Shown here: one piece after another, positions 5,427-24,440 of the stretch
Numbering within the stretch: position 1 is the stretch's first letter
Layout of the letters: every line of letters starts with the position of its first letter
Source: Streptomyces niveus
GTDB taxonomy: Bacteria > Actinomycetota > Actinomycetes > Streptomycetales > Streptomycetaceae
Length of the DNA stretch: 64,000 nt
Reading direction: 5' to 3'
NCBI RefSeq assembly: GCF_002009175.1
Contig: NZ_CP018047.1
Span: 4,650,001-4,714,000 of the forward strand
The notes under the pieces: model-generated
The model's input: the letters and a program-made list of their open reading frames with translations, nothing else
Databases searched by the model: none
What the model was told of the DNA's origin: nothing
Program-made: the position numbers and the translations under genes

Positions 5427-6584
5427 TCACACCCCCGCCACGACCAACGGCTCGCCGGAGGGGACCCCTTCGGCCTCCATTTCCGCGGCGATCTTCAGGG
5501 CTTCTTCGATGAGGGTCTCGACGATCTTGGATTCGGGGACCGTCTTGATGACCTCGCCCTTGACGAAGATCTGGCCCTTGCCGTTCCCCGACGCCACCCC
5601 CAGATCCGCCTCACGCGCCTCACCCGGACCGTTCACCACACAGCCCATCACCGCCACCCGCAACGGAACCTCCATGCCCTCCAGGCCCGCGGTCACCTCG
5701 TCCGCGAGCTTGTAGACGTCGACCTGCGCACGCCCGCAGGACGGGCAGGAGACGATCTCCAGGCGGCGCTGCTTCAGATTCAAGGACTCAAGGATCTGAA
5801 GGCCGACCTTGACCTCCTCCGCCGGCGGCGCCGAGAGCGACACCCGGATCGTGTCCCCGATCCCCTCGCTCAGCAGCGCACCGAACGCCACCGCGGACTT
5901 GATCGTCCCCTGGAACGCCGGACCCGCCTCCGTCACCCCCAGATGCAGCGGATAGTCACACCGGGCCGCGAGCAGCCGGTACGCGTTGACCATCACCACC
6001 GGATCGTTGTGCTTCACCGAGATCTTGATGTCCCGGAACCCGTGCTCCTCGAACAGCGACGCCTCCCACAACGCCGACTCGACGAGTGCTTCGGGAGTGG
6101 CCTTCCCGTACTTCTTCAGAAGCCGGGCGTCCAGCGAACCCGCGTTCACCCCGATACGGATCGGCGTCCCCGCCGCCCCCGCCGCCTTCGCGATCTCCTT
6201 GACCTTGTCGTCGAACTGCTTGATGTTCCCCGGATTCACCCGCACCGCCGCACACCCCGCGTCGATCGCCGCGAACACGTACTTCGGCTGGAAATGAATA
6301 TCCGCGATCACCGGGATCTGCGACTTCCGCGCGATCGTCGACAACGCGTCCGCGTCATCCTGCGTCGGACACGCCACCCGCACGATCTGGCACCCCGACG
6401 CCGTCAGCTCCGCGATCTGCTGCAACGTCGCCCCGATGTCCGACGTCCGCGTCGTCGTCATCGACTGCACCGACACCGGCGCGTCCCCACCGACAGCCAC
6501 CGAACCGACCTGGATCTGACGACTGACCCTCCGGTCGGCCAGCTTCACCGGAACATCCGGCATTCCGAGTGCGATGGCGGTCAT
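5427..6584 (-). CDS. ispG: 4-hydroxy-3-methylbut-2-enyl diphosphate synthase (flavodoxin type)
   Basis: A 385-residue IspG/GcpE catalysing the sixth step of the MEP isoprenoid pathway, MEcPP to HMBPP, with a [4Fe-4S] cluster. The N-terminal TIM barrel is clear ([17 protein letters not shown]). The cluster-binding C-terminus shows SCPSCGR with two ligating cysteines, then a third cysteine in CVVNGPGEA followed by the conserved glutamate. ATG overlaps the dxs stop by 4 bp (ATGA), so the two are translationally coupled. It is the last gene of a ten-gene leftward operon that also holds dxs, ispH and a prenyl synthase, and is probably a pathway-dedicated copy beside a housekeeping one elsewhere. 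Confidence 0.95.
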
Positions 6585-8371
6585 GAGGTGAGTGTCCTTT
6601 CCGAGGTCATCCGAGTCAGTACCGCGTCCGTGACGGCGTCGGCGGTCAGCCCGCAGTGGGCGAGGACCTGGGCCCGCGAGCCGTGGTCGAGGAACTCGCG
6701 CGGCAGCCCGAAGTTCCTTACGGGCGTGTCGATCCCGGCGTCCGCCAGGGCCTGCCCGAACGCCGCGCCGACGCCGCCGACGCGTCCGCTGTCCTCGATG
6801 GTGATCACATGCTTGAAGTACGCGGCGGCCTCCACCAGCGTGGGGTTGACCGGGGTGACCCAGCGCGGGTCGACCACCGTCGCCCCGACGCCCGCCTCCC
6901 CGAGCCGGCCGGCGACGTCCAGCGCGAGCCGGGCCATCGGGCCCACCGAGACGATCAGGACGTCGCGGCCGGGCGCGTTGTGGAGCACGTCGAAGCCGTC
7001 GGTCGTGTCGATCGCGGGGATGTCCGCGCCGGTGGTCCCCTTGGGGAAGCGCAGCACCGTCGGCCCCTGCTCCCAGGCGACCGCCTCGCGGAGCAGTGCG
7101 CGCAGTGTCGCGCCGTCGCGCGGCGCGGCGATACGGATGTCCGGTACGGCCTGGAAGAGGGTCAGGTCCCACATGCCGTTGTGGCTGGCGCCGTCGTCGC
7201 CGGTGACGCCCGCGCGGTCCATCACCAGCGTGACGGGGGCGGAGTGCAGGGCGATGTCGGTGACCATCTGGTCGATCATGCGGTTGCCGAACGTCGCGTA
7301 GATGGCCAGCACCGGGTGCAGACCGCCGAGCGCCAGACCGGCGGCGGCCGCCGCAGCGTGCTGCTCGGCGATCCCGACATCGATCGTGCGCGCCGGGAAC
7401 TCCCGCTGGAACTCCAGCAGTCCGACCGGTTCCGCCATCGCCGCCGTGATCGCCACGACATCGGAACGCTCCGCCCCGATCCGTACCATCTCGTCGGAGA
7501 ACACGGCCGTCCACGCGGGACTCGACGCGGGAGCGGCGGTGGCGGACGGGGCGGTGGCCGGCGGAGTCGCCCGTACGACATGGCAGCGGTCCAGCTCGTT
7601 CGTCTCCGCCGTCTCCCAGCCGCGACCCTTCTCCGTCACCACATGGACGACGACCGGACCGCCCAGGGCCCGCGCACGACCCAGCGCGTCCTCGACGGCG
7701 GCGATGTCGTGCCCGTCGACCGGGCCGACATAGCCGAAGCCGAACTCCTCGAAGACGTTCGCGGAAGCTCCGTCGCCCGTGGCCGAACGCAGTTTGCCGA
7801 GGTGCGCCGCCAGGCCACCCACCGTCGGCGCGTACGAGCGCTCGTTGTCGTTCAGGACCACGATCACCGGCCGCTGGGGCGCGCCGCCCAGGTTGTTCAG
7901 CGCCTCCCAGGCGAGACCGCCGGTCAGCGCCCCGTCCCCGATGACGGCGACCACCGCGCGGTCGGTGTCGCCGCTCAACTCGCGGGCGCGCGCCAGCCCG
8001 TCCGCGTAGCTGAGCGCCGTCGACGCGTGCGAGTTCTCGATCACGTCGTGCTCGGACTCGGCGCGCGAGGCGTAGCCGGACAGCCCGTCGCGTGTACGCA
8101 GACCGTCGAACCCGGCGCGCCGGCCGGTCAACAGCTTCTGTACGTAGGTCTGGTGGCCGATGTCCCAGAGCAGCGTGTCCTGCGGCGAGTCGAAGACCCG
8201 GTGCAGCGCGATGGTCAGCTCGACCACGCCCAGGTTGGGTCCGAGGTGTCCGCCGGAGCGGCACACCGCGTCGATCATCACCTCCCGGATCTCCGAGGCG
8301 AGCTGGCCGAGTTGCGCGGGCGAGAGACCGCGGAGATCGCGGGGAGCCGCGATCTCGTCGAGTAGTGCCAT
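6581..8371 (-). CDS. dxs: 1-deoxy-D-xylulose-5-phosphate synthase
   Basis: A 596-residue thiamine-diphosphate enzyme joining pyruvate and glyceraldehyde-3-phosphate, the committed entry to the MEP pathway. Visible motifs are the ThDP signature [16 protein letters not shown], the active-site [17 protein letters not shown], and the N-terminal [20 protein letters not shown] at 8371 has GGAGG 8 nt upstream. It is slightly shorter than typical Dxs (about 620-650 residues), with an Ala/Pro/Ser linker ([19 protein letters not shown]) between the first and second domains. It stops inside the ispG start. A dxs inside a secondary-metabolite operon normally raises precursor flux for a terpenoid product. 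Confidence 0.95.
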
Positions 8372-8439
8372 GACTGAACCCTCCATGTCCGAGATGGCCG
8401 ACGTGGCCGACGTGTCCGTGCGGCGGTGGTGCGGATCTG

Positions 8440-8931
8440 TCAGGGCCGGCCAGTTCCCGGGTCGCCGTCCGTGGGCGGCGGCCGGAAGCTGATCTGCGAG
8501 CCGGGCCGCAGGCCGGCCTCGGGACCGGTGAGCGTCCAGGCGGTGTGGATCAGTACGTTGTAGTGGTTGGGGAAGTGGCAGGCGTCGAAGCCCAGCAGGG
8601 TGCCGATGGGCTCCCCGTCGACCAGGACGATGTCGCCCCGGTCCAGCACCCCGGACACCGAGATCTCCACGAATCCGAGGAAGCCGACCCGGTCGATACG
8701 GGAGCCGGCCTCGGTCTCCAGATGGTCGGTGGTGACCAGTTCGTGCAGCTCGCCCTCGCGTACGCAGCGGGAGGCGAACTCCTCCAGGCGCATGCCGCGG
8801 TCCGTACGGCGGTGCCGCAGCACCTTGACCACCTCGGACCTGACCGTGCGCTTGTCGCCGTTCTCCGGGCTGGGCGCCAGCAGCGCCGGGACCTGCGTCC
8901 CGTTGGCGGTCCCGTTGGCCGTCCTGTTCAT
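8440..8931 (-). CDS. Small uncharacterised cluster protein (possibly DUF6917-like)
   Basis: A 163-residue protein whose ATG shares one base with the upstream stop (TGATG), so it is tightly coupled to the Gfo/Idh gene. The core has [51 protein letters not shown] and [15 protein letters not shown]. The cysteine and two histidines in ACHFPNHYN could form a metal or catalytic site, and the alternating beta-strand/turn pattern suggests a compact beta-rich fold. It resembles, from memory only, a Streptomyces family listed as DUF6917. The first ~30 residues are low-complexity. There is no known activity; its strict placement inside the operon suggests a pathway role such as a small enzyme or binding protein. 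Confidence 0.75.
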
Positions 8932-9893
8932 CACGTCACCGCCTCCGTCCGCTCGGATCGCCCCGTCTGCTCGGTCTGCTCCGCCCGCTCCGTGCGGTAC
9001 GTCGCGTCGACCAGCTCCAGCATCGCGAGCCCGGCGCGCGAGGCGTCCGTACCGGCGCGCACCGCCTGCTCGAACTCCTGGAGCACACCCACGTATTCGT
9101 GCTTCAGGGAGCTCTTGAACGCGTGGTGCCCGGCGAGCATGTCCGCGTGGTGCTCGGTGCCGTCCTTCAGGCGGACGGTGACGTCCTTCGCCTCGCCGTG
9201 CGGATACGACCAGTCCAGCTCGACGGTGGCGGGCACCCCGCCGGCCGAGCGCAGCTCCACCCGCGCCTGCCGGTCGACGCCCTCCCCGTCGCGTACGACC
9301 TCGGCGGACTCGACCGTCAGCTCGCCGAGGAACAGCCGTACGACGTCGAAGGCGTTGGGGCCGTTGTCGGCGACGCAGCCGCCGCCGCAGCGCTCGGGGT
9401 CGAGGTACCAGCGGTCCTGGCCGACGTGCTCCTCGATCTTCTCCAGATAGCGCACCGTCACCGACTCCACCGCCGCCGCCTCGGGGAGTGAACGCAGCAG
9501 GCCGAGCACGTTGTCGTTGTAGCGCCGGTGGAACGCGGTGAACAGCACCGAGCCGCCGCTCACGGCGAGTTCGGTGAGCGCGCGGCCGTCGGCCAGGTGC
9601 AGGGCGAGCGGCTTCTCCACGCAGACCGCGACGCCCGCTTCGAGCGCGTCGCGGCAGACGGCCGCGTGCGCGTCGTTGGGGACGTTGACGACGATCGCGT
9701 CGAGTTCGGTCTCGGCGAGCATCCGCCGGTGGTCCGGGTAGCAGGGCAGCCCCGCCGCGCGGTGCGGGGCCAGCGCGTCCTCGCGCAGGTCGCAGACCGC
9801 GACCAGTTCGAGGGTGGGCAGGCCGGGGAAGGCGTCGAGGTAGAACCGGGAGATGACCCCGAGCCCCACCACGCCTATCCGCAGGGGTTTCAT
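8931..9893 (-). CDS. Gfo/Idh/MocA family oxidoreductase (first copy)
   Basis: A 320-residue NAD(P)-dependent sugar or inositol oxidoreductase. The N-terminal Rossmann motif is [14 protein letters not shown], the family signature [11 protein letters not shown] follows, and the C-terminal domain has [17 protein letters not shown], where family members usually place a catalytic HxxD; here the histidine position reads NAFD. Such enzymes oxidise a sugar hydroxyl, often at C3, to a ketone ahead of a DegT aminotransferase. ATG at 9893 has a strong AAGGAGG 8 nt upstream. The C-terminus ends in a Glu/Thr/Arg-rich tail. Together with the second Gfo/Idh and two DegT genes, this suggests two keto-sugar formation and amination steps. 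Confidence 0.85.
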
Positions 9894-9984
9894 TTTCTGT
9901 GTCCTCCTTGGAGGCGATCGCCGGTGTGCCGGGTGGTGGGTGCCGGGGTGGTGGGGTGGTGGGTGTCGCCCGGGGCCTCGCGGG

Positions 9985-11160
9985 CTACGTGTCCTGTGCC
10001 GGGCTTCCTTCGAGCGCCTTCGGCGCCGTCAGGCCCCGCTCCGCCGCCACCGCGACCAGCTCCTCGAACAGGGCCGCCGACAGCGGGACCCCGCTCTTGC
10101 CGTGCTCCGTCGCGCGCTCCGCCTCGAACCAGCCGGGGTAGCGGACCGGACGGTCCTCGTCCACCGCCGGGGAGCCGACCAGCGCGTCGAACATCCCGGC
10201 CGTCTGCGCCTCGAAGTCCTCCCGCGGGCGCAGCTCCGCCGGGGCGACGACCAGCACCGTGAAGCCGATGTTGTCGTCCTGGCCGCTGGGGCTGCCGCTG
10301 CCGGACCAGGCCTCGGTCGCCGGGCCGAGGCCGGCGCCCGGCAGGAGCGCGCCGAGGACCTCGACGAGCAGGCCGAGCCCGTACCCCTTGAACGCCCCGG
10401 TGGCCGGATCGCCGCCCAGCCACTTCAGATAGCCGTCGCCCCGGTCGAGCGCGTGCGGGTCGGTGACCGGTTGGCCATCCTTGTCCTCCAGCCAGCCCTC
10501 CGGGATCGGCTGTCCGGCCCGCGCCGCGCCGCGGACGCGGCCGGTCGGGACGACGGTGGTGCTCATGTCGAGGACGAGCGGCGGGCGCGCCCCGGCGGGC
10601 GCGGCGAACGCGAGCGGGTTGGTGCCCAGCAGCGCGGCCTGTCCGCCGGGCGGCCGGATGATGCGCTGCTGACCGCAGTTGGAGACGAGCAGGCAGATCA
10701 TCCCGCGGTCCGCCGCGCGCTTGGCGTGCGCGCCCGCGCAGCCGAGGTGGGTGGCGTCGCGTACGGAGACGAGCCCGACGCCGTACTGGAGGGCGCGCTC
10801 GGCGGCCAGGTCCACGGCCTCGCTCGCCGACCAGAGGCCGAGGGCGCGGTGCGCGTCGAGCAGGACGGCCGCACCCCGGTCGGCCAGCACTTCGGGCTCG
10901 GCGGCCGGGTCGCAGCGGCCGTCCTCGAAGAGCTTCAGATAGAGCCGGGTGAGGTTGGTCAGGCCGTGCGAGGTGATGCCGGTCAGGTCGCCGTGGACCA
11001 GGGCCTGCGCTGCGGTCAGGGCCCGCTCGGCGGGCAGGCCGTGGTGCCGGAACACGGCGGCGGTGAACTCCACCAGCTCGGTGAGGTCGACGCGCGGTGT
11101 CGCGGGGGCGTCGGCGGTCGATGTCGTCGTGCTCGTCGTGGTTGTCGTGGTCGTCGTCAT
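9985..11160 (-). CDS. Ldh2-family (malate/L-lactate-type) NAD(P)-dependent dehydrogenase
   Basis: A 391-residue member of the LDH2/MDH2 family, which reduces 2-oxo acids or cyclic imines such as piperideine-carboxylate rather than using a Rossmann fold. Family segments are GITSHGLTNLTRL, VSVRDATHLGCAGAHAKRAADRG, GTNPLAFAAPA and GAFKGYGLGLLVEVLGALL. The protein begins with a run of eight threonines (MTTTTTTTTSTTTST) from an ACG/ACC-type repeat, absent from typical family members and probably disordered. ATG at 11160 lies 4 bp after the M20 stop, with AGGGGA inside the end of the M20 gene. The substrate is unknown; reduction of an oxo-acid or imine in the cluster product is plausible. Confidence 0.85.
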   Translation of the reverse strand: MTTTTTTTTSTTTSTADAPATPRVDLTELVEFTAAVFRHHGLPAERALTAAQALVHGDLTGITSHGLTNLTRLYLKLFEDGRCDPAAEPEVLADRGAAVLLDAHRALGLWSASEAVDLAAERALQYGVGLVSVRDATHLGCAGAHAKRAADRGMICLLVSNCGQQRIIRPPGGQAALLGTNPLAFAAPAGARPPLVLDMSTTVVPTGRVRGAARAGQPIPEGWLEDKDGQPVTDPHALDRGDGYLKWLGGDPATGAFKGYGLGLLVEVLGALLPGAGLGPATEAWSGSGSPSGQDDNIGFTVLVVAPAELRPREDFEAQTAGMFDALVGSPAVDEDRPVRYPGWFEAERATEHGKSGVPLSAALFEELVAVAAERGLTAPKALEGSPAQDT

Positions 11161-11164
11161 GAGG

Positions 11165-12511: not shown

Positions 12512-12542
12512 GCGGGGTCCCCCTCTCTTTGCTGACGGCCTG

Positions 12543-13406
12543 TCAGGCGGCGCTGTCCGTGGCCGGACCCAGCTCGCGCACGAGCTTTTCGAGCCGCTGC
12601 CCGTACGCCACGAACTCGTCCACGTAGTCCCCGGACGGGTCCGACCAGCCCTCGTGGGGACGGATGTTGATGTGCGGCTCGATCGAGACGGTGCCGGAGT
12701 AGCCCTGGTCGAACAGCAGCCGCAGCGAGTCCGCGACCCGGCAGTCCCCGTCGCCGGGCAGCGAGTAGAACTGCGCGCTGGTGTCGCCCGTACCGTCCTT
12801 CACGTGCACGTGCGCGACATACGGCGCGATGTGCGCGAGATGGTCGTACGCCTCGTAGCCGTACGCGATGCCGTTGCCGACGTCGAAGAGCAGTCGCAGC
12901 GCGGGGCTGTCGGCGGCCTCCAGGAGACGGAGCATGCGCGCAGGGTCGGTGGCGGCCCAGCCGGCGCAGTTCTCGTGCACCAGCACCAGTCCGGCGTCCT
13001 CGGCGCGCACGGTGAGCCGCCGTATCCGCATCAGCACCTCCCGCTCCCAACCGGCGTCCGAGAGACCGGCGTTGGGGTAGGACATGATGCGTACGTAGCG
13101 GGTGCCGAGGTGGTCGCAGCGGTCGGCGAGCCGCGCCAGCTCGTCGAGGTCGTCGGTGAACGGCGAGGCGATCGTACGGGCCCAGTTGCCGATCCGGGAG
13201 TCGACGCAGGAGACCCCGAGCCCGGCCTCGGCGATCGACCCGGCCACCCGGTCGAAGGCCGGGCCGTCGAGTTCGGCCAGGGGGACACCGTCGACCGAGC
13301 GCAGCTCCACGCTGTCCCAGCCGAGCCGCCGTACCGCCTCGATCTGCCGGTCGATCCCCGGGGCGGCCTCGTCGCCGATGCCGCTCAGACGGATGTCAGC
13401 CCTCAT
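12543..13406 (-). CDS. Xylose-isomerase-like TIM-barrel protein (sugar phosphate isomerase/epimerase family)
   Basis: A 287-residue AP-endonuclease-2/IolE-type TIM barrel. It shows the metal-site pattern of the family: VHENCAGWAATDP (Glu), LLFDVGN (Asp), HVHVKDG (His) and SIEPHI (Glu). Members epimerise or isomerise sugars, dehydrate inosose, or act on 3-keto sugars. ATG at 13406 lies inside the end of the upstream Gfo/Idh gene (11-bp overlap), so the two are likely produced together. Pairing of a Gfo/Idh with an IolE-like barrel is common in keto-sugar and inositol pathways. Confidence 0.85.
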   Translation of the reverse strand: MRADIRLSGIGDEAAPGIDRQIEAVRRLGWDSVELRSVDGVPLAELDGPAFDRVAGSIAEAGLGVSCVDSRIGNWARTIASPFTDDLDELARLADRCDHLGTRYVRIMSYPNAGLSDAGWEREVLMRIRRLTVRAEDAGLVLVHENCAGWAATDPARMLRLLEAADSPALRLLFDVGNGIAYGYEAYDHLAHIAPYVAHVHVKDGTGDTSAQFYSLPGDGDCRVADSLRLLFDQGYSGTVSIEPHINIRPHEGWSDPSGDYVDEFVAYGQRLEKLVRELGPATDSAA

Positions 13407-14544
13407 GGTCTGCACCGCCCTGGAGCGCGGGGGAGACGCCGGTGAGCGGTGGCCGGGCAGGCGCCGAGGAGTCCTCGCGGGCGCTCTGCGCGGCGGCCAA
13501 CAGACGTGCTTCCTGGAGCAGTTGGACCACCCGCCGCGCGATCGCGTAATCGTCCATGTCCTCCACGCCGCCCGGACCGCCGCCGTCCGAAGCGCTACGG
13601 CCCGAGCCGCTGCCGCCACCCGCGTCGACCGCCTGGTACTCCCGGTAGGCGTGGTCGATGTAACTGGTCAGCGCGTCGTCGAAGAGGATCCGCGGGGTCG
13701 CCGCACCACCGCCGGCGTCGTCGTGGACGGTCAGACTGGCGTGGTGGTCGACATCGCTGATCGGGTAGTGGCCGACGACATGGCCGGTGTCGAACCGCAG
13801 CCCGACACGGCGTTCGCGGATCGGCGAGGTGAGGTCGGAGGCAATCTCCGTGGTAGCGCCGTTGTCGTGCTGGAGCGTCAGCCGGGCGCCGCCCATGCCG
13901 GGGATGACCCTGTCGCCGATCCGCATGTCCGTCAGCGCCGCGTCGGTGATCCGCGCGTCCCCCGCGAGCCGCAGGGCGACACCGAGGGAGTGCGGCAGCT
14001 CCACGTCGAAGGCGGTGGTGTGGTTGTTGGAGCGCAGCGTGCGCGTCCAGCGCGGCTTGAACTGGGTGAAGGACATCGAACGCAGCTCGCCCAGCCCGCC
14101 GTACCGCGTCAGTTCGGCCAGCTCCCTGGTGAGCGAGCTGGCCAGCCACGGCGAGACGACCCGCAGCCGCAGACCGCGCACCCGCGCCAGCATGTCGATC
14201 GCCTCCAGGCCGGCGATGTCGTCCGCCATCGGCTTCTCGACCACGATGCGGGTGTAGCCGAGGTCGGCCAGCTGCTGGAGCGTGGCGAACCGGTCGGCCG
14301 GTGGCGTGCACAGATGGACGACCGTGGTGGCGGGGTCCGCCAGCTCGGCGGCGTGGGCCAGGGAGTCCGCCGGCACCAGGCCCTCGGTCAGGGCCTGTTC
14401 GCGGATGTCCTGGACGTCCCAGACCACGGGCGGGTCCGGCGACCACGGACCGCTTCCGTCCGGCAGGGCGCGCAGCTTGCGCAGCACCGGCCAGTGCAGC
14501 CCGAGGCCGGCCCGCCCGCCGCCGACGATGAACGTGTTCAGCAT
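13396..14544 (-). CDS. Gfo/Idh/MocA family oxidoreductase (second copy)
   Basis: A 382-residue protein with an N-terminal Rossmann motif FIVGGGRAGLGLHW and the family lysine in VVEKPMADDI. It is more divergent and longer than the copy at 8931-9893, with a low-complexity Gly/Ser insert (DAGGGSGSGRSASDGGGPGG) before the last helix. The dinucleotide motif is GGGRAG rather than the common GxGxxG/A of close relatives. It is probably an NAD(P)-dependent oxidation or reduction of a sugar-derived intermediate. It overlaps the TIM-barrel gene by 11 bp and lies 61 bp after the prenyl synthase. Confidence 0.82.
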   Translation of the reverse strand: MLNTFIVGGGRAGLGLHWPVLRKLRALPDGSGPWSPDPPVVWDVQDIREQALTEGLVPADSLAHAAELADPATTVVHLCTPPADRFATLQQLADLGYTRIVVEKPMADDIAGLEAIDMLARVRGLRLRVVSPWLASSLTRELAELTRYGGLGELRSMSFTQFKPRWTRTLRSNNHTTAFDVELPHSLGVALRLAGDARITDAALTDMRIGDRVIPGMGGARLTLQHDNGATTEIASDLTSPIRERRVGLRFDTGHVVGHYPISDVDHHASLTVHDDAGGGAATPRILFDDALTSYIDHAYREYQAVDAGGGSGSGRSASDGGGPGGVEDMDDYAIARRVVQLLQEARLLAAAQSAREDSSAPARPPLTGVSPALQGGADHEG

Positions 14545-14605
14545 GACGTGACCTTCGCTCTCGAGGAGATCTGTCGTCTGGCGAGAAAGGGAACGGGCTG
14601 CCGGA

Positions 14606-15673
14606 TCAGTGGTCGCGGTAGGCCACCGACGTGGCCATGTCGGCGAGTTCGCGCTTCCACTCCTCGCTGATGGGCGCCGCCGACAGCGCCTCGTGCGCCT
14701 GGACCACCAACTCGTCGATACGGTGCTCCACTTCGGCGCGTACGCCGCTGCTGGTCAGCGCCTCGGCCAGCGCGGCGCCGTCCCACTCGGCGGCCTGGAC
14801 CAGCTCGCCGACGTGCGGGTCGCGCAGCGCGGCGAGGCTCACCAGGAGCGTCATCTTGTGCTGTTCGGCGTCCAGACCGACCGGCTTGCCGACCGCGTCC
14901 GCGTCGCCGTAGGTGTCGATGAGGTCGTCGCGCAGCTGGAACGCCTCGCCCAGCGCGGTGCCGTACGCCTCGAAGGCGGCGGCCGACGTGGTGTCGCCCG
15001 CGATGGCCGCGCCGAGCTCCAGCGGGCGGTGGATGCTGTAGTGACCGGACTTGGCGTTGGCGATGTACCGGGCGAGCTTCGGGTCCGGGAGGGACTCCGC
15101 GGCGACCGTCACGTCCAGGTGCTGACCGATGATCATCTCGCTGACGAGTCGGCCCCAGACCAGCCGGGCCTCGGCGGGCAGGTCCTGGATGAGCTGTCCG
15201 GCGTACGAGAAGGCCAGGTCACCGGCGAGTACGGCGATGCCCTCGCCGTAACGGCGGGCCTCGCCCTGCCAGCCCCGCGCCCGGTGCCGCTCGATGTGCT
15301 GGACATGGACCGTGGGCTTGCCGCGGCGCAGGTCGGAGTCGTCGATGACGTCGTCGTGGATCAGCGCGAACGCGTGCAGCATCTCGATGGCCGCCGCCGC
15401 GTCGACCACACGCGAGTCGGACAGCTCACCGCCCGCCGCCAGGAAGCCGGCCGCGCAGAACGCGGGGCGCAGGCGTTTGCCGCCGGCGCGGATCAGTTCG
15501 CCGATGGCGTCGACGGGGACCGCGGCGCGCGCGTCGACCGCCGCCCAGCGGGAGTGCTCCGCGGCGAGCATGGCGTCGAGCCGTTCCTCGGTACGGTCCA
15601 GGACGGCCGCGCGGGACTGCGCGGCGAGCCCTGCGAGGTGCTCGACGGCCGGTGCGGGCGGTGAGACGGTCAT
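14606..15673 (-). CDS. Polyprenyl (probably geranylgeranyl) diphosphate synthase
   Basis: A 355-residue trans-isoprenyl diphosphate synthase that condenses allylic diphosphates with IPP. The first Asp-rich motif is DDVID with no 2-residue insertion, inside MLHAFALIHDDVIDDSDLRR; the second is DDLIDTYGD. The residue five before the first motif is Phe and the fourth is Ala, the pattern of archaeal-type GGPP synthases, so a C20 product is predicted. ATG at 15673 has AGGAG 7-9 nt upstream. It sits beside ispH in the operon, so MEP flux, prenyl elongation and tailoring are co-expressed. No terpene cyclase is present in the window. Confidence 0.92.
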   Translation of the reverse strand: MTVSPPAPAVEHLAGLAAQSRAAVLDRTEERLDAMLAAEHSRWAAVDARAAVPVDAIGELIRAGGKRLRPAFCAAGFLAAGGELSDSRVVDAAAAIEMLHAFALIHDDVIDDSDLRRGKPTVHVQHIERHRARGWQGEARRYGEGIAVLAGDLAFSYAGQLIQDLPAEARLVWGRLVSEMIIGQHLDVTVAAESLPDPKLARYIANAKSGHYSIHRPLELGAAIAGDTTSAAAFEAYGTALGEAFQLRDDLIDTYGDADAVGKPVGLDAEQHKMTLLVSLAALRDPHVGELVQAAEWDGAALAEALTSSGVRAEVEHRIDELVVQAHEALSAAPISEEWKRELADMATSVAYRDH

Positions 15674-15866
15674 GAGCGTTCTCCTGTCGTGTCGGCGGTC
15701 GTGCCGGCGATCTGGTCCTCGGGGCGCCGGGCCCGTTCTTCCAGGCGTACGGCTCCGAGGCGTGGGGCTCCGGGCTCGCGGCGCCGGCTCCGGCACATGA
15801 GCGGCGCGGGCCGTACGGCTTCCGCCGGAGGGGCGGACGAATCGGGCGGACGGATCGGCGGACCGA

Positions 15867-16826: not shown

Positions 16827-17131
16827 GACTGGAAACTCCTGTCGGTCCGTGGAATTGGGCTTCACCGTCGACCACACCGAAGAGGCAAGTCAAGGTTTTT
16901 CGGACCGGCAATAAGCAAGGAGCCAGGTAATAGGCAGAGTTCTGCACGCTCTTGCCTGCACTGTCCCCCGCAACTGCCAATGGATTGCCGGGTGATTGCT
17001 ATCGAAGGGGTGTCGGCGCGCGGTCTACGTTCGATCGGACGTAACGAGCAGAACCGCGGAGTTCCGGACGAGCAGTTCCGACAAACAGAACCGTGGATTC
17101 CGCCCAGCACCGCCGAGACGACTGGAGTGAA
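16827..17131. promoter_or_regulatory. Bidirectional promoter/operator region of the biosynthetic island
   Basis: This 305-bp non-coding gap separates the divergent ispH and DegT operons and is more AT-rich than its surroundings. It contains an 18-bp near-palindrome at 17026-17043 (TACGTTCGATCGGACGTA, one mismatch). It also holds a pair of CAGAACCG repeats (17049-17056 and 17086-17093) that bracket two AGTTCCG copies (17060-17066 and 17074-17080), giving two GAAC/GTTC inverted pairs. These look like regulator binding sites; the protein is unknown, with the LuxR-type regulator at 1475-3958 as a candidate. Confidence 0.65.
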
Positions 17132-18355
17132 ATGGACAGCAAGGCGATGCCGGCTCCGGCGAGCACCGTCCCGTTCTTCACACAGGCGGAATCCTTCGAG
17201 CGTCTGTGGCCCCGGCTGAGCGCGTATCTCGACGAGGTCTGCGAGTCGGGGACGTACTCCAACGGGCCGAAGACCGCCGAGCTGGAGGCCGCGCTGCGCG
17301 CCTACACCGGTGCCCGGCACGCGATAGCCGTCGGCAACGGCACCGACGCGCTGGTCCTGCTGCTGCGCGCGGCGGGGATCGGCCCCGGTGACGAGGTGAT
17401 CGTGCCGGCGTTCAGCTTCTTCGCGTCGGCCAGTTCCGTGGCGCTCGTCGGGGCGGTCCCCGTCTTCGCCGACGTCGACCCGCTCACCTACAACCTCGAC
17501 CCGGCCGCGCTCGAAGCGCTGATCACACCGCGCACCAAGGCCGTCATGCCGGTCCATCTGTTCTGCCAGCCCGCCGACATGACCGCGGTGCTCGCCGTCG
17601 CCGAACGCCACGGCCTGCTCGTCCTGGAGGACAGCGCCGAGGGCATCGGGATGCGGCTGAACGGACGCCACACCGGTCTGATCGGGGCGGGCGGCGTGCT
17701 GTCGTTCTTCCCGACCAAGACGCTCGGCGCGCTCGGCGACGCCGGCATGGTGCTGACCGACGACGACGCGCTCGCCGGCGCCGTCCAGCGGCTGCGCGAC
17801 CACGGCCGGCCCGCGCTGCCGCACCCGTCCCCGGCCTCCGGTGCCAAGCCCGCCGCCGCCCCGGCGGCACGCGCCGAGTACGCGCGGCAGGGCGAAATCG
17901 CGGGCACCAACAGCAAGATGGACGAACTCCAGGCCGCGGCCCTGCTCACGAAGCTGACCACGCTGGACGACGACATCCGCCGCCGCGCCGTGCTGGCCGA
18001 CGCCTACACCCGCCGGCTGCGCGGCATCCCCGGCGTGCGCGGGCTGCCCGCGGTCGTGGAGCGCGGCGAGCCGGTGGATCCGGTGTTCTACGTCTATCTC
18101 ATCGAGACCGACCGGCGCGACGCCCTCGTCTCGCACCTCGCCGCCGCGGGCATCGGCACCGAGACGTACTACCCGCTGCCGCTGCACCTCCAGCCGTGCT
18201 TCGCCCATCTCGGCCACCAGGAAGGCGACTTCCCGCACGCCGAGGCGGCCAGCCACCGCACCGTGGCGCTGCCGCTCTACCCCGAGCTGACCCTCGCGCA
18301 GCTCGGCCGGGTGTGCGACGCCGTCCGCTCCTTCTTCACCGGGAGTACGTCATGA
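17132..18355 (+). CDS. DegT/DnrJ/EryC1 sugar aminotransferase (WbpE/WlbC-like)
   Basis: A 407-residue PLP enzyme. The Schiff-base lysine is in SFFPTKTLGALGDAG, and the substrate/PLP regions VGNGTDALVLLLRA, DEVIVPAFSFFASA and LEDSAEGIG are typical. The overall pattern, including ETYYPLPLHLQPCF near the C-terminus, is closest in my reading to aminotransferases that act on UDP-3-keto-hexuronates (WbpE, WlbC) or other NDP-ketosugars. ATG has GGAGTG just upstream. First gene of the rightward operon; it overlaps the next DegT gene by ATGA. Confidence 0.88.
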   Translation: MDSKAMPAPASTVPFFTQAESFERLWPRLSAYLDEVCESGTYSNGPKTAELEAALRAYTGARHAIAVGNGTDALVLLLRAAGIGPGDEVIVPAFSFFASASSVALVGAVPVFADVDPLTYNLDPAALEALITPRTKAVMPVHLFCQPADMTAVLAVAERHGLLVLEDSAEGIGMRLNGRHTGLIGAGGVLSFFPTKTLGALGDAGMVLTDDDALAGAVQRLRDHGRPALPHPSPASGAKPAAAPAARAEYARQGEIAGTNSKMDELQAAALLTKLTTLDDDIRRRAVLADAYTRRLRGIPGVRGLPAVVERGEPVDPVFYVYLIETDRRDALVSHLAAAGIGTETYYPLPLHLQPCFAHLGHQEGDFPHAEAASHRTVALPLYPELTLAQLGRVCDAVRSFFTGSTS

Positions 18356-19539: not shown

Positions 19540-19653
19540 CCACCGGCGCGGCCCCCCCCATGCGCGCGGTCGGCCGCTTTCGCCCGACCGCCGTCGCCGA
19601 CCGCTGTCGCCCGACCCTGACCAACTGACCAATCTTCTCCGACGGGAGCAACC

Positions 19654-20919
19654 GTGAAAAGCAAGGTCGTCGTTGTCGGGCAGGGGTACGTGGGCCTGCC
19701 ACTGGCCGTCCGGGCCGCCCAGGCCGGCCACCAGGTGGTCGGCTACGACGTGGACACCGACCGCGTCAAACGGCTCGTCAGCGGTGAGTCCTACGTCGAG
19801 GACATCCCCGACGCACAGCTCGCCGTCCTGCTCGACCGGGGCACCTACCTGCCCACCACCGACCCCACGGACCTCGACGGCTTCGACATCGCCGTCGTCA
19901 CCGTGCCCACCCCGCTGCGGGACGGCGCCCCCGACCTCTCGTACATCGAGTCGGCCGCCCACACCCTCGCCGGCCGGCTGCGCCCCGGCGCGACCGTGGT
20001 CCTGGAGTCGACCACGTACCCCGGCACCACCGTCGAACTGCTCGTCCCGCTGCTGGAGGAGGGCTCGGGCCTTGTCGCCGGCCAGGACTTCCACCTCGGC
20101 TACAGCCCCGAGCGCATCGACCCCGGCAACCCCACCTGGCGCCTGGAGAACACGCCCAAGGTGGTCTCCGGCATCGACTCGGCCTCCCTCACCGCCGTAC
20201 AGGCCTTCTACGACACGATCACCAGCAACACCGTGCCCGTGCGCACGACCGAGGTCGCCGAGCTGTCCAAACTGATCGAGAACACCTTCAGGCACGTCAA
20301 CATCGCCCTGGTCAACGAGATGGCGATGTACGCGCACGAACTCGGCGTCGACGTCTGGGAGGCGCTGGACGCCGCCGCCTCCAAGCCCTTCGGCTTCATG
20401 CGCTTCACCCCCGGCCCCGGGGTCGGCGGCCACTGTCTGCCGGTCGACCCCGAGTACCTGTCCTGGCGGGTCAGGCGCACGCTCGGCCGCAGCTTCCAGT
20501 TCGTCGAACTCGCCAACGAGATCAACGGGCACATGCCCGACCATGTGGTCCAGCGGCTGCTGCTCGCCTTCAACGCCCGCCGCAGGCCGCTGGCCGGCTC
20601 CCGGGTCCTGCTGCTCGGCCTCGCGTACAAGCCGAACACCGGTGACGCCCGCGAGTCGCCCGCGCTGCGCGTGGCGGAGCTGCTGCTCGGTCTCGGCGCC
20701 GAGGTACGCGCGGCCGACCCGTACGTGGTCGAGGCGGTCACCGTGAACAGCAGGCTGACCCGCTGCGACTTCACCGAGGAGGAGCTGGCGGCGGCCGACG
20801 CGGTGGTGCTGCTGACCGACCACGACGCCTTCGACTACGAACTCGTCGCCCGCGCCTCGGACTTCGTCCTGGACTGCCGGCACCGGCTGGAGACCGGCCC
20901 CACCGTCGAAGTCCTCTGA
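19654..20919 (+). CDS. Nucleotide-sugar 6-dehydrogenase (UDP-GlcNAc/UDP-Glc type)
   Basis: A 421-residue four-electron NAD-dependent dehydrogenase oxidising C6 of a UDP-hexose to the uronate. Motifs: VVVVGQGYVGLPLA (NAD), YSPERIDPGN, ELSKLIENTFRHVNIAL, the catalytic cysteine in GPGVGGHCLPVDPEYL, and LLGLAYKPNTGDARESPA. The SPERxDPGN and GGHCLPVDP forms match the WbpA/TviB branch that acts on UDP-GlcNAc better than the Ugd/UDP-glucose branch, an inference from motifs. GTG start follows GGGAG. With the Gfo/Idh and DegT genes this fits a UDP-3-amino-3-deoxy-uronate route. Confidence 0.9.
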   Translation: MKSKVVVVGQGYVGLPLAVRAAQAGHQVVGYDVDTDRVKRLVSGESYVEDIPDAQLAVLLDRGTYLPTTDPTDLDGFDIAVVTVPTPLRDGAPDLSYIESAAHTLAGRLRPGATVVLESTTYPGTTVELLVPLLEEGSGLVAGQDFHLGYSPERIDPGNPTWRLENTPKVVSGIDSASLTAVQAFYDTITSNTVPVRTTEVAELSKLIENTFRHVNIALVNEMAMYAHELGVDVWEALDAAASKPFGFMRFTPGPGVGGHCLPVDPEYLSWRVRRTLGRSFQFVELANEINGHMPDHVVQRLLLAFNARRRPLAGSRVLLLGLAYKPNTGDARESPALRVAELLLGLGAEVRAADPYVVEAVTVNSRLTRCDFTEEELAAADAVVLLTDHDAFDYELVARASDFVLDCRHRLETGPTVEVL

Positions 20920-21005
20920 AGTCCTCCGAGCGGTGATCGGGCGAGCAAGGCGAGCGAGAGACCGGCCGCAATCCGGGCCGTCCAACGGGAGACGGAGACA
21001 CAGAC

Positions 21006-22973
21006 GTGAGTGACGGACATCCGGAGGTCTGCATCGTCGGCGCCGGGCCTCGCGGGCTCTCGGTGCTGGAACGGCTCTGCGTCAACGCGCGCCGGGGCCT
21101 GCCCGGCGGCTCCACCCTCACGGTGCACGTCGTGGACCCGCACCGGCCCGGCGCCGGCGGGGTGTGGCGCACCGACCAGTCCCACCATCTGCTGATGAAC
21201 ACCGTCGCCTCGCAGGTCACGCTGTTCACCGACGAGAGCGTGGAGATCGACGGCGAACTCGCCCCCGGCCCCAGCCTGTACGACTGGGCGGTCGAGACGG
21301 CGGCGGCGCCGGGGGAGGGGACCGGGGAGGCGTACGACGACCAGGTCCGCGCCGAGGCCCGCGACCTCACCCCGGACTCCTACCCGACCCGCGCCTTCTA
21401 CGGCCACTACCTGGAGTGGGTCTTCCGGCACGTCGTCCGCACCGCGCCGACGCATGTGCGCGTCGTCGTCCACCCGTGGCGGGCGGTCCGGCTGGACGGC
21501 GCCCCCGAAGGACCGCAGAGCGTGCACCTCGCCGACGGCTCCCGCGTGGAGGGCCTGGACGCGGTTGTCCTGGCCCAGGGCCATCTCGCCGTCCGGGGCG
21601 GTCCCGGCGAGCATGAACTCGCCGGCTTCGCGCGGGCCCACGCGCTGACGTATGTCCCGCCCGCCAACCCCGCCGACACCGACCTGTCCGCCGTCCGGCC
21701 GGGCGAGGCCGTCGCCCTGCGCGGACTCGGGCTCAACTTCTTCGACCATCTGACGCTGTTCACGCTCGGCCGTGGCGGCACGTACACCCGAAAGGACGGC
21801 CGGCTCGTCTACGGCCCGTCCGGACGCGAACCGCGCCTGTACGCCGCCTCCCGGCGCGGCATCCCGTACCACTCACGGGGCCGCAACCAGAAGGGCGCGC
21901 ACGGCCGGCACATCCCGCGGGTCCTCACCCCGGAGGTGCTGGAGCGGCTGCGCACAGCCGCCCGGCTCGGCGGCGGCCTCGACTTCGGCCGCGACCTGTG
22001 GCCGCTGATCGCCAAGGAGGTCGAGACCGTCTACTACACGGCGCTGCTCGCCCGGCGCGTCGGCGAGCGCGAGGCCGGCCGGTTCGGCGACCGGTATCTG
22101 AAGCCGGCCTGGGGATCGGCCGAGGAGTCCGACCTGCTCGACGCGTACGGCATCGGCCCCGAGGCCCACTGGGACTGGAAGCACCTCTCCCTGCCCCACG
22201 CCGACCAGGGCTTCCGGAGCGTCGGGGACCACCGCGACTGGCTGCTGGACATCCTGCGCCGGGACCTCGCCGAGTCCGAGGCGGGCAACGTCGAAGGCCC
22301 GCTCAAATCCGCCCTCGACGTGCTGCGGGACCTGCGCAACGAGATCCGTCTGGTGGTCGACCACGGCGGACTCACCGGCCGCTCCCACCGCGACGACCTG
22401 GAGCGCTGGTACACCCCGCTCAACGCCTTCCTGTCCATCGGCCCGCCCGCCGCCCGGATCGAGCAGATGATCGCGCTCGTCGAGGCCGGGGTACTGACCG
22501 TCCTCGGCCCGGACATGCGCGTCGGCACCGACCCCGACCGGGGTGTCTTCACCGTCGAGGCACCCGCCGTGCCCGGCTCCGCGACCCGCGTCACCACCCT
22601 GGTCGAGGCCCGGCTGCCCGAGCCCGACCTGCGCCGGACGACCGATCCGCTGCTGATGGACCTGCTGGCCACCGGGCAGTGCCGCCCCTACGCGATAGCC
22701 GACCCGGAACTCGGCGCGTACGAGACCGGCGGCCTGGCCGTCACGCCCCGGCCCTACCGGCTGGTGGACGCCGAGGGCCGCGCCCACCCCCGGCGCTTCG
22801 CCTACGGCGTACCGACCGAGTCCGTGCACTGGGCGACCGCGGCCGGGGTCCGCCCCGGCGTCAACTCGGTGACCCTGGGCGACTCCGACGCGATCGCGCT
22901 GGCCGTCCTGGCCCTGCCCGCGGGCCCGCCCCGGCCTCCGGTGACGGACCACCAGAAGTCCAGGACCACGTGA
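21006..22973 (+). CDS. FAD/NAD(P)-binding monooxygenase, CreE-like (L-aspartate N-oxygenase candidate)
   Basis: A 655-residue flavoprotein with an N-terminal FAD motif VCIVGAGPRGLSVLERL (residues 8-24), which marks the FAD-NAD(P)-binding family annotated PF13454. DQSHHLLMNTVASQVTLFTD and DSYPTRAFYGHYLEWVF are further family segments. Length, family and direct adjacency to a PcaB/fumarase-type lyase match the creE-creD pair. In cremeomycin biosynthesis CreE oxidises L-aspartate to nitrosuccinate and CreD releases nitrous acid. The GTG start has GGGAGACGGAGA upstream. The specific CreE assignment is from memory and context, not an alignment; a generic flavin N-oxygenase is the alternative. Confidence 0.75.
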   Translation: MSDGHPEVCIVGAGPRGLSVLERLCVNARRGLPGGSTLTVHVVDPHRPGAGGVWRTDQSHHLLMNTVASQVTLFTDESVEIDGELAPGPSLYDWAVETAAAPGEGTGEAYDDQVRAEARDLTPDSYPTRAFYGHYLEWVFRHVVRTAPTHVRVVVHPWRAVRLDGAPEGPQSVHLADGSRVEGLDAVVLAQGHLAVRGGPGEHELAGFARAHALTYVPPANPADTDLSAVRPGEAVALRGLGLNFFDHLTLFTLGRGGTYTRKDGRLVYGPSGREPRLYAASRRGIPYHSRGRNQKGAHGRHIPRVLTPEVLERLRTAARLGGGLDFGRDLWPLIAKEVETVYYTALLARRVGEREAGRFGDRYLKPAWGSAEESDLLDAYGIGPEAHWDWKHLSLPHADQGFRSVGDHRDWLLDILRRDLAESEAGNVEGPLKSALDVLRDLRNEIRLVVDHGGLTGRSHRDDLERWYTPLNAFLSIGPPAARIEQMIALVEAGVLTVLGPDMRVGTDPDRGVFTVEAPAVPGSATRVTTLVEARLPEPDLRRTTDPLLMDLLATGQCRPYAIADPELGAYETGGLAVTPRPYRLVDAEGRAHPRRFAYGVPTESVHWATAAGVRPGVNSVTLGDSDAIALAVLALPAGPPRPPVTDHQKSRTT

Positions 22974-23012
22974 AATCATCGCTGGCGAGCGCGAGTTGAC
23001 GAGGAATCAGAT

Positions 23013-24440
23013 ATGACGAGCAGTCAGCCCATGATCGACACGGGGCTTTTCTCGCCGGTCCGGTCGGGCACCCCGGCCGAGGCCGCCACGAGCGACACCG
23101 CGTGCCTCCAGGCCATGCTCGACACCGAAGCCGCCCTGGCACGGGTGCAGGCCCGGCTCGGCACCGTACCCGAGTCCGCCGCCCGAGCCATCGGCGAGGC
23201 CGCGCGGGCCGAACACTTCGACCCGCACGAGCTGGCGGTCCAGGCGCGCGGCGCCGCCAACCCGGTCGTCCCCCTCGTACGGCGGCTGACCGCGCTGGTC
23301 GCCGCCCGGGACGCCGACGCCGCGCACAGCGTCCACCAGGGCTCCACCAGCCAGGACATCCTCGACACCGGCCTCATGCTGGTCGCCGCGCGCACCCTCG
23401 ACCTCGTCCTGGCCGACCTGGACCGCACCGCCGCCGCGCTGGCCGGCCTCGCCGCCCGGCACCGCGACACCCCCATGGCCGCCCGCACACTCGGCCAGCA
23501 CGCCGTCCCGACCACATTCGGCCTCAAGGCGGCCGGCTGGCTCCAGGGCGTGCTCGACGCACGGGACCGGCTGCGCCGGGTGCGCACGCAGGGGCTGCCG
23601 GTCCAACTCGGCGGCGCGGCGGGCACGATGGCCGGATATCTGGAGTACGCGCTCCTGCACGCGCCGGACGCCGCCGCCGACGGCGGGCGGCGCTACATCG
23701 AGGAGCTGCCCGGCGCGCTCGCCGCGGAGCTGGACCTCACCGAACCGCTCGTGCCCTGGCACACCGTCCGTACGCCCCTCGCCGACCTCGGCGCGGCCCT
23801 CGCCCTGCTGACCGGCGCGCTCGGCGGTATCGCGGCCGACGTCCAGCTGCTGTCGCGCACCGAGACGGGCGAGCTGGCGGAACCGGCGGCCGAGGGCCGG
23901 GGCACGTCCTCCGCCATGCCGCACAAACGCAACCCCGCGCTCTCCGCGCTGATCCGCGCCGCCTCCTACCAGGTGCCCTCCCTCGTCGGCACCTTGATGC
24001 AGGTGTCGGTCCACGACGACGAGCGGCCCTCCGGCGCCTGGCACGCCGAATGGCTGCCGCTGCGCGACTGTCTGCGCCTGGCCGGCGGCGCGGCGCACAC
24101 CGCCGCGGAACTGACGGAGGGTCTGACCGTCCACGAGGACCGGATGCTGGCCAATCTGGACCTCACCGGCGGTCTGGTCGTCTCCGAACGGCTCGCGGCG
24201 CTGCTCTCCGTCGAACTCGGCAGGGCGGAGGCGAAGGCGCTGCTCGGCCGCGCGTCGGCGCAGGCCGCCACCTCCGGCAGGCATCTCGCCGATGTCCTGG
24301 CACAGGCCCCCGACCTGGCAGGACGCCGGTCGGCCGACGACCTCCGCAAGCTGTCGGATCCGGCGCACTACACCGGGGCGGCGGGCCAGTTGGTGGACCG
24401 GGTGCTCGGCCGCTTCCGCCTCGACCGGCCCGCCGACTGA
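23013..24440 (+). CDS. Fumarase/adenylosuccinate lyase superfamily protein, CreD-like (nitrosuccinate lyase candidate)
   Basis: A 475-residue lyase. The superfamily signature GTSSAMPHKRNPAL is at residues 297-310 and HQGSTSQDILDTGLM at 108-122, both typical of the PcaB (carboxymuconate cycloisomerase) and adenylosuccinate lyase branch. These enzymes eliminate an amine or leaving group from succinate-type substrates to give fumarate. Directly after a CreE-like flavoprotein, nitrosuccinate lyase (nitrous acid plus fumarate) is the best reading. ATG has GAGGAA 5-10 nt upstream. It is the last gene of the rightward operon, followed by a GAGGAC repeat and a non-coding gap. PcaB itself is unlikely because no protocatechuate genes are present. 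Confidence 0.78.
   Translation: MTSSQPMIDTGLFSPVRSGTPAEAATSDTACLQAMLDTEAALARVQARLGTVPESAARAIGEAARAEHFDPHELAVQARGAANPVVPLVRRLTALVAARDADAAHSVHQGSTSQDILDTGLMLVAARTLDLVLADLDRTAAALAGLAARHRDTPMAARTLGQHAVPTTFGLKAAGWLQGVLDARDRLRRVRTQGLPVQLGGAAGTMAGYLEYALLHAPDAAADGGRRYIEELPGALAAELDLTEPLVPWHTVRTPLADLGAALALLTGALGGIAADVQLLSRTETGELAEPAAEGRGTSSAMPHKRNPALSALIRAASYQVPSLVGTLMQVSVHDDERPSGAWHAEWLPLRDCLRLAGGAAHTAAELTEGLTVHEDRMLANLDLTGGLVVSERLAALLSVELGRAEAKALLGRASAQAATSGRHLADVLAQAPDLAGRRSADDLRKLSDPAHYTGAAGQLVDRVLGRFRLDRPAD

Follow-up and report, generated by a model that had tools for sequence, protein, structure and literature searches.

A putative nitrite-bearing branch of a widespread, apparently undescribed prenyl/amino-sugar gene cluster family in Streptomyces niveus

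We analysed a 64,000-nucleotide stretch of Streptomyces niveus DNA (contig NZ_CP018047.1, positions 4,650,001 to 4,714,000; G000:C1:4650001-4714000; hereafter the window), taken from a genome of 7.99 Mb on a single contig, and found that it harbours most of an antibiotic-type gene cluster, a nitrite-bearing branch of a widespread, apparently undescribed prenyl/amino-sugar cluster family. On balance, we favour the interpretation that this cluster couples an isoprenoid to an amino-sugar acid, with nitrous-acid chemistry added in this branch. Every recognised part falls in known enzyme families. A previous sequence-only reading had proposed a new biosynthetic system of fifteen genes at 5427..24440; all fifteen were confirmed to be present and correctly positioned, with codon bias of the coding type and Pfam and NCBIfam matches to the families named, and the gene left unnamed in that reading (8440-8934) was found to encode a DUF6917 protein. 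The genes are listed below in window coordinates, with inner start codons, where given, picked from open reading frame translations.

1..1214 (whole gene -201 to 1214), plus strand: FAO10, FAD amine-oxidase-type flavoenzyme, 3' part; PF01593, 98.9 bits; 90% identity in S. camponoticapitis, 68% in Streptomyces TP-A0874
1655..3958, plus strand: LuxR-type regulator with TPR regions; PF00196; 82% in S. camponoticapitis, 43% in TP-A0874
5427..6584, minus strand: ispG, second copy; TIGR00612/NF001540 above cut-off
6581..8386, minus strand: dxs, extra copy; TIGR00204, 559 bits (cut-off 466)
8440..8934, minus strand: DUF6917 protein; PF21891, 180 bits
8931..9893, minus strand: Gfo/Idh-type dehydrogenase 1 (gfo1); PF01408, 84 bits; below every NCBIfam cut-off
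9985..11160, minus strand: Ldh_2-family dehydrogenase (ldh2); PF02615, 333 bits
11165..12511, minus strand: M20 metallo-hydrolase; PF01546
12543..13406, minus strand: AP_endonuc_2 TIM barrel of isomerase/epimerase/dehydratase type; PF01261
13396..14544, minus strand: Gfo/Idh-type dehydrogenase 2 (gfo2); PF01408, 24.9 bits (cut-off 24)
14606..15673, minus strand: short-chain polyprenyl diphosphate synthase, probably for geranylgeranyl diphosphate (GGPP); PF00348
15867..16877, minus strand: ispH, second copy; NF002189, 450 bits (cut-off 444)
17093..18355, plus strand: DegT-type sugar aminotransferase 1 (degT1); PF01041, 374 bits
18349..19539, plus strand: DegT-type sugar aminotransferase 2 (degT2); PF01041, 288 bits
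19654..20919, plus strand: nucleotide-sugar 6-dehydrogenase (ugd), WecC/WbpA-like; TIGR03026, 405 bits (cut-off 190)
21006..22973, plus strand: CreE-type L-aspartate N-hydroxylase (by sequence); 8cp2/8cp5 match
23013..24440, plus strand: CreD-type nitrosuccinate lyase (by sequence); NF052556, 664 bits (cut-off 650)
G000:C1:4646839-4647816, left of the window: UbiA prenyltransferase; PF01040, 61 bits (cut-off 34.2)

As a complete system the fifteen genes were ruled out, since the cluster continues leftward. Pfam matches in 40 kb read to the left identified a SARP-type regulator, an MMPL exporter, the FAD amine-oxidase-like protein FAO2, UbiA, an AMP-binding ligase of the ANL superfamily and FAO10, which runs into the window; the last five are conserved together with the fifteen-gene block. 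The borders follow from two collinear clusters, one with the cre genes (S. camponoticapitis) and one without (TP-A0874). The order in S. camponoticapitis is MMPL, FAO2, UbiA, ligase, FAO10, LuxR, DUF4287, ispG, dxs, DUF6917, gfo1, ldh2, M20, TIM barrel, gfo2, GGPP synthase, ispH, degT1, degT2, ugd, creE and creD, and this conserved order, at 80-96% protein identity to S. niveus, argues that the arrangement is more than chance. The TP-A0874 cluster is collinear from MMPL to ugd at 43-88% identity (ldh2 stands outside both counts), and DUF4287 had no match in it. At the corresponding places in both clusters the SARP-type gene, which was consequently dropped as a member, and an NmrA-like gene (4060-4905) were not found; the latter sits between the cluster halves in S. 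niveus and in genome G631, and is probably an insertion. With the order kept from MMPL to creD and neither the SARP-type nor the NmrA-like gene conserved, the conserved unit is placed at approximately G000:C1:4642167-4674440, some 32 kb, of which the fifteen-gene block makes up the greater share.

Of the two edges proposed earlier, that at 5427 had to be moved leftward, whilst that at creD was retained. Downstream of creD, S. camponoticapitis, S. niveus and Streptomyces sp. NP-1717 have PPK2, which S. physcomitrii lacks at this place, its next genes being unrelated, and the right border is therefore set at creD. Beyond the conserved cluster, 27838-28914 encodes a 358-aa AMP-binding protein whose C-terminal part is seemingly missing. 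The closest relatives of the window genes come from S. niveus, S. camponoticapitis, NP-1717 and G631, and these also carry the same cluster, or the part of it on the available contig, such that the claim of a combination unlike any other holds only for clusters with a named product.

The core of the cluster is not unique either. Eight amino-sugar genes make it up (two Gfo/Idh, two DegT, ldh2, M20, TIM barrel and DUF6917), and these, mostly accompanied by UbiA, recur in 108 distinct loci, mostly without nitrite genes or genes of the methylerythritol phosphate (MEP) pathway. DUF6917 was found in 46 of 297 genomes of the taxonomic family, and of 392 genomes from the genus 41 carried gfo1 (E 1e-90). 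A scan of genome contigs with an M20 alignment detected 250 related stretches; the 80 listed lie in Streptomyces, Kitasatospora, Nocardiopsis, Saccharopolyspora, Lentzea, Actinomadura, Kutzneria, Crossiella and others. One record was obtained when plasmids were searched with M20. The 108 loci comprise 30 of the 46 family loci, 77 of the 80 contig-scan loci (three duplicates removed) and the window. Many have short flanks, so that true gene counts may be higher, and flanks were extended for creE-positive genomes only. Core genes were counted as DUF6917 103, gfo1 104, TIM barrel 106, gfo2 106, degT 96 and ldh2 105, and further genes as UbiA 82, FAO10 77, ligase 75 and a methyltransferase 65, with any MEP or GGPP gene in 25 loci and creE in 15. 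Two types of locus emerge. Thirty-six loci carry a CoA-transferase or second ligase; none of these has MEP genes and one, from Crossiella, has creE. In the 12 loci with MMPL or BenE, MEP or GGPP genes are present in 11 and creE in eight.

Two loci (L071 and L080, of genomes G171 and G183) have a divergent core of rearranged order, approximately 42-55% identical, and form a distant branch of the family. Two different DUF6917 proteins (P0130 and P0231) are encoded on one chromosome-size contig of S. tubbatahanensis, which suggests that this organism has two clusters of the family.

DUF6917 is the hallmark protein of the cluster family; 684 homologues were retained out of 832 candidates, and its AlphaFold2 model (mean predicted local distance difference test, pLDDT, 87.1) has a confident beta-rich fold, a barrel by its strands. 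The closest solved structures were 2oga, which we take to be DesV, and then WbpE for degT1, WbpE for degT2, and UDP-N-acetyl-mannosaminuronate-type dehydrogenases, headed by 4r16, for ugd; the nearest solved relatives are of WbpA/E-like types, yet the specific equivalog cut-offs were not reached. These relatives agree with the WbpA/B/E-type set of the sequence-only reading in respect of putative C3-aminotransferases and a putative UDP-N-acetylhexosamine dehydrogenase, but nothing marks gfo1 as WbpB. No NCBIfam cut-off was reached by gfo1 and no close characterised relative was found in the PDB search, in which L-arabinose dehydrogenases scored best (72 bits) and 3q2k and 3q2i, presumably WbpB-like WlbA, scored 47 and 40 bits. 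In a PDB profile search the M20 protein was nearest to N-acetyl-ornithine/lysine and LysW-lysine deacylases, which fits removal of an N-acetyl group, and its His/Asp/Glu positions are invariant across 29 sequences. Solved relatives of Ldh_2 include malate, ureidoglycolate and delta1-piperideine-2-carboxylate enzymes. The TIM barrel (structure model pLDDT 94.3) has E147, D177, H201 and E245 invariant in 27 aligned sequences (numbering of the 12543-13412 translation), Glu/Asp/His/Glu being the usual metal-site pattern of this superfamily.

The isoprenoid genes were confirmed as extra copies: the genome has dxs at three places, ispG at two and ispH at two, and the copies outside the cluster are 61% and 54-66% (dxs), 98% (ispG) and 56% (ispH) identical to those within. 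The cluster does not hold a complete MEP set, with only dxs, ispG and ispH present. The polyprenyl synthase carries both Asp-rich motifs, including the motif HAFALIHDDVID, and its best-scoring other genomic copy is 38% identical. In GGPP synthases the position five residues ahead of the first Asp is typically aromatic and that at four small, and from this pattern the product is probably GGPP (C20). The UbiA protein also has both of its Asp-rich motifs, DDVNGIKDG and KDISGD.

The cluster ispG (5427-6584) and the housekeeping ispG (G000:C1:2017767-2018909, L221, in a dxr-rseP-ispG locus) share 97% DNA identity over 1136 bases. In four of seven genomes with at least two copies (S. niveus, S. camponoticapitis, TP-A0874 and SAJ15), the cluster ispG pairs with the copy of its own genome at 95-97% DNA identity, whilst the A. 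alba copies pair at 82% and ISL-43 and WC-3618 lack such pairing; that own-genome pairing occurs despite orthologous clusters in S. niveus and S. camponoticapitis suggests recurrent gene conversion. In G118 (L050:7026-11476), dxr, a ferredoxin-like gene and genes for 2-oxoacid:ferredoxin oxidoreductase subunits adjoin the cluster, and S. canus, ISL-43, GKU 895, S. buecherae and S. philanthi have relatives of some of these, which may supply electrons to IspG and IspH.

The creE product, the only match of its kind in the S. niveus genome, matched one distinct PDB sequence, 8cp2/8cp5, at 726 bits over residues 8-637; this is the L-aspartate N-hydroxylase of Streptomyces sp. V2, according to PMC10404684. 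The creD product passed the NCBI nitrosuccinate-lyase equivalog and had CreD (5xny) as its top PDB match. It carries an SSAMPHKRNP loop, comparable with the consensus SSxMPxKRNP proposed for nitrating enzymes (PMC13411527), and an R....WH segment whose spacing agrees with Arg341, Trp346 and His347 of S. cremeus CreD. Sequence comparison did not place either protein outside the CreE and CreD types; at this level the assignments hold, and the pair should, as predicted, make nitrous acid. No enzyme to use it was recognised with equal clarity: most nitrite-using enzymes of such pathways belong to the ANL superfamily (PMC10777205), and no diazotase was recognised in the cluster, its ANL ligase scoring 62 bits against the AvaA6 diazotase model (cut-off 975).

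The position of the cre genes relative to the adjoining core varies among the window group, S. buecherae, strain ISL-43, G118, UNOC14_S4 and Crossiella. In the stretches examined, creE stands without creD in GKU 895, S. canus, SAJ15, S. palmae, UNOC14_S4 and Crossiella, which in S. palmae may be explained by a contig end; a creD search of 18 genomes did not separate CreD from the related muconate cycloisomerase and its result was unused. In S. philanthi 23Af2 (L185) creE and creD are fragmented beside an otherwise present core, whilst the open frames are longer in S. buecherae, to which it is closely related, and this looks like decay in an insect symbiont. A small carrier-protein gene lies near creE in G118, GKU 895, S. 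canus, ISL-43 and W. vitaminophila (L050:3664-4738, L203:3248-3499); that of ISL-43 is a PP-binding protein (48 bits) and that of G118 adjoins a phosphopantetheinyl transferase gene, and perhaps the carrier tethers a substrate for the nitrogen chemistry.

From the gene content, family placement, synteny and recurrence observed, we infer a substrate, an order of steps, a chain length, a product and a target for the nitrous acid. The eight-enzyme core, here with its own UDP-N-acetylhexosamine-type 6-dehydrogenase, would probably convert a UDP-amino-sugar to a polyaminated sugar acid or else to a ring acid formed from it. In the simplest route, UDP-N-acetylglucosamine (UDP-GlcNAc) would be converted to the uronate, oxidised and aminated at C3, subjected to a second oxidation-amination, rearranged and deacylated. 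The extra MEP enzymes and the synthase would provide a prenyl diphosphate, most likely GGPP, which UbiA would attach; the adenylating ligase would activate a carboxylate, the FAD oxidases modify the product and the MMPL protein export it. The earlier reading of an isoprenoid and amino-sugar product is retained in outline, though it had missed UbiA and the ligase, the enzymes that might do the joining, as well as the recurrence of the core. Nitrous acid from CreE and CreD would most likely diazotise or nitrosate an amino group installed by the DegT enzymes. The most likely product is an amino-sugar-derived acid bearing a prenyl group, probably C20, which nitrous acid may optionally tailor. More tentatively, and at less than even confidence, the family may represent an undescribed, widespread actinobacterial metabolite class with a UDP-GlcNAc-derived head group, made by the eight-enzyme pathway and prenylated by UbiA, to which this branch adds an isoprenoid supply of its own as well as a diazo, nitroso, triazole or related N-N group formed from nitrous acid.

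Several observations weigh against this interpretation. Only 51 of the 108 loci (many with short flanks) have ugd next to the core, and no glycosyltransferase or sugar-releasing enzyme was recognised among the genes scanned, which leaves departure of the nucleotide unexplained. No description of such a cluster, or of a product of the family, was found in open-licence PMC full text. The TP-A0874 genome as a whole has no creE match, the rest of the collinear cluster being present, and CreE-derived nitrous acid therefore cannot be needed for the core product. When 26 stretches were compared, creD was present in 9 of 16 cre-positive ones, and no other family occurred in more than five of these whilst absent from the 10 cre-negative ones; the next such families comprised oxidoreductase subunits, a ferredoxin-like protein, a carrier protein and others. 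The link between cre and MEP genes is loose and no more than suggestive. A second sample, chosen without regard to cre, took 20 genus loci from the 30 best-scoring of 41, excluding genomes already in the first set, and contained neither MEP nor creE in 12 loci, MEP only in four, both in two and creE only in two. Pooled with the 30 of 46 family loci, these gave 50 cre-blind loci, with creE in 3 of 9 with MEP or GGPP genes and 2 of 41 without (p 0.035, uncorrected for kinship and from a sample drawn partly from loci most like the window). On a tree of M20, creE and MEP genes were scattered over several subclades with five changes each, and only three independent creE/MEP pairs were present, which is not enough for a test. 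The Fisher p of 4e-10 that linked MEP to creE was not relied on, as flanks had been extended in creE-positive genomes only and the rows were related.

Alternatively, the core may convert the sugar to an aromatic or heteroaromatic carboxylic acid of pyrrole, pyridine or benzoate type, with UbiA prenylating the ring, a proposal that we regard as possible though doubtful. The curated models nearest to UbiA are naphthoate-type prenyltransferases, albeit weak at 31 bits, the Ldh2 family includes delta1-piperideine-2-carboxylate reductase, and a homologue of the benzoate transporter BenE occurs in 6 of the 108 loci. BenE is, however, uncommon and had no match in the window cluster, and no aromatising enzyme was identified besides the two amine-oxidase-type flavoproteins.

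It appears unlikely that the CreE/CreD pair is an independent neighbour, lying by chance beside a prenyl amino-sugar cluster and providing nitrite for something else in the genome. Such independence would account for the cre-free TP-A0874 cluster and for W. vitaminophila, in which the one creE found is on a different contig from the core and adjoins a carrier-protein homologue, and the MEP-creE link was not demonstrable on the tree. Against it, creE adjoins the core in 15 of the 108 loci in several arrangements (under the uneven flank extension noted above) and was found in 4 of the 20 loci sampled without regard to cre; the differing positions of cre beside the core favour repeated functional association over a single chance neighbour.

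A deaminating role for nitrous acid, on the pattern of avenalumic and p-coumaric acid biosynthesis, is improbable; in it, an ANL enzyme would diazotise the amine and the NmrA-like reductase (4060-4905) would exchange the diazo group for hydride. An ANL-superfamily ligase is present, the NmrA-like gene lies within the cluster, and NmrA-like genes occur near cre in S. buecherae, S. philanthi and G463. The matches to AvaA6 and AvaA7 (26 bits for the latter) are nonetheless far below the curated cut-offs of 975 and 400, such that the cluster has no orthologue of either at cut-off; the ligase also occurs in cre-negative clusters such as TP-A0874 and is unsupported as a diazotase, and the NmrA-like gene, which the S. 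camponoticapitis cluster lacks although it is cre-positive and otherwise collinear, was dropped as an AvaA7-like reductase. Nor did Pfam find that pathway's ketosynthase/chain-length-factor pair among the window and left-flank proteins. Production of a polysaccharide or lipid carrier for the envelope, in place of a secreted metabolite, is very improbable: amino-uronate genes with a prenyl synthase are typical of envelope pathways, but no glycosyltransferase, polymerase or flippase was found among the genes scanned, the distribution is patchy (46 family and 41 genus genomes, as above), and a LuxR regulator and MMPL exporter are present.

The favoured prenylated amino-sugar acid pathway resembles several known systems in part. 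The Pseudomonas WbpA/WbpB/WbpE pathway to UDP-diamino-uronate appears to share the 6-dehydrogenase, Gfo/Idh and DegT C3-aminotransferase types, whereas S. niveus has two Gfo/Idh and two DegT enzymes, Ldh2, M20, TIM barrel and DUF6917, in operons shared with prenyl genes, and a Pfam scan of the genes in the window and its left flank showed no WbpD-type acetyltransferase. UbiA-type bacterial meroterpenoid clusters share a membrane UbiA prenyltransferase with its own prenyl diphosphate supply; the head group in S. niveus would apparently derive from a nucleotide amino sugar, not a polyketide or shikimate aromatic. The aspartate-nitrosuccinate clusters for cremeomycin (cre), fosfazinomycin, alazopeptin and avenalumic acid, as presented in PMC11705231 and PMC10777205, have in common with S. 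niveus the adjacent CreE- and CreD-type genes with conserved signatures. They differ in that S. niveus joins cre with UbiA, MEP and amino-sugar genes and has no recognised diazotase, and in that creE and creD are missing from most loci of its cluster family. Azamerone is a terpenoid phthalazinone with nitrite-derived nitrogen, whose producer has creE/creD homologues at a locus apart from the putative cluster (PMC11705231). It is likewise a bacterial meroterpenoid pathway using nitrite, whilst in S. niveus cre lies within the cluster. We take the genes of the two clusters to be otherwise unlike.

If the favoured interpretation is correct, the actinobacteria possess a common cluster family without a described product. 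Its shared core is found whether or not an isoprenoid supply is present, and likewise whether or not nitrous-acid genes accompany it. The window cluster and that of TP-A0874 would thereby constitute a natural experiment on the role of nitrous acid, and the family would allow a test of whether UbiA enzymes accept acids made from sugars; a new enzyme that uses nitrite may perhaps also be found in it.

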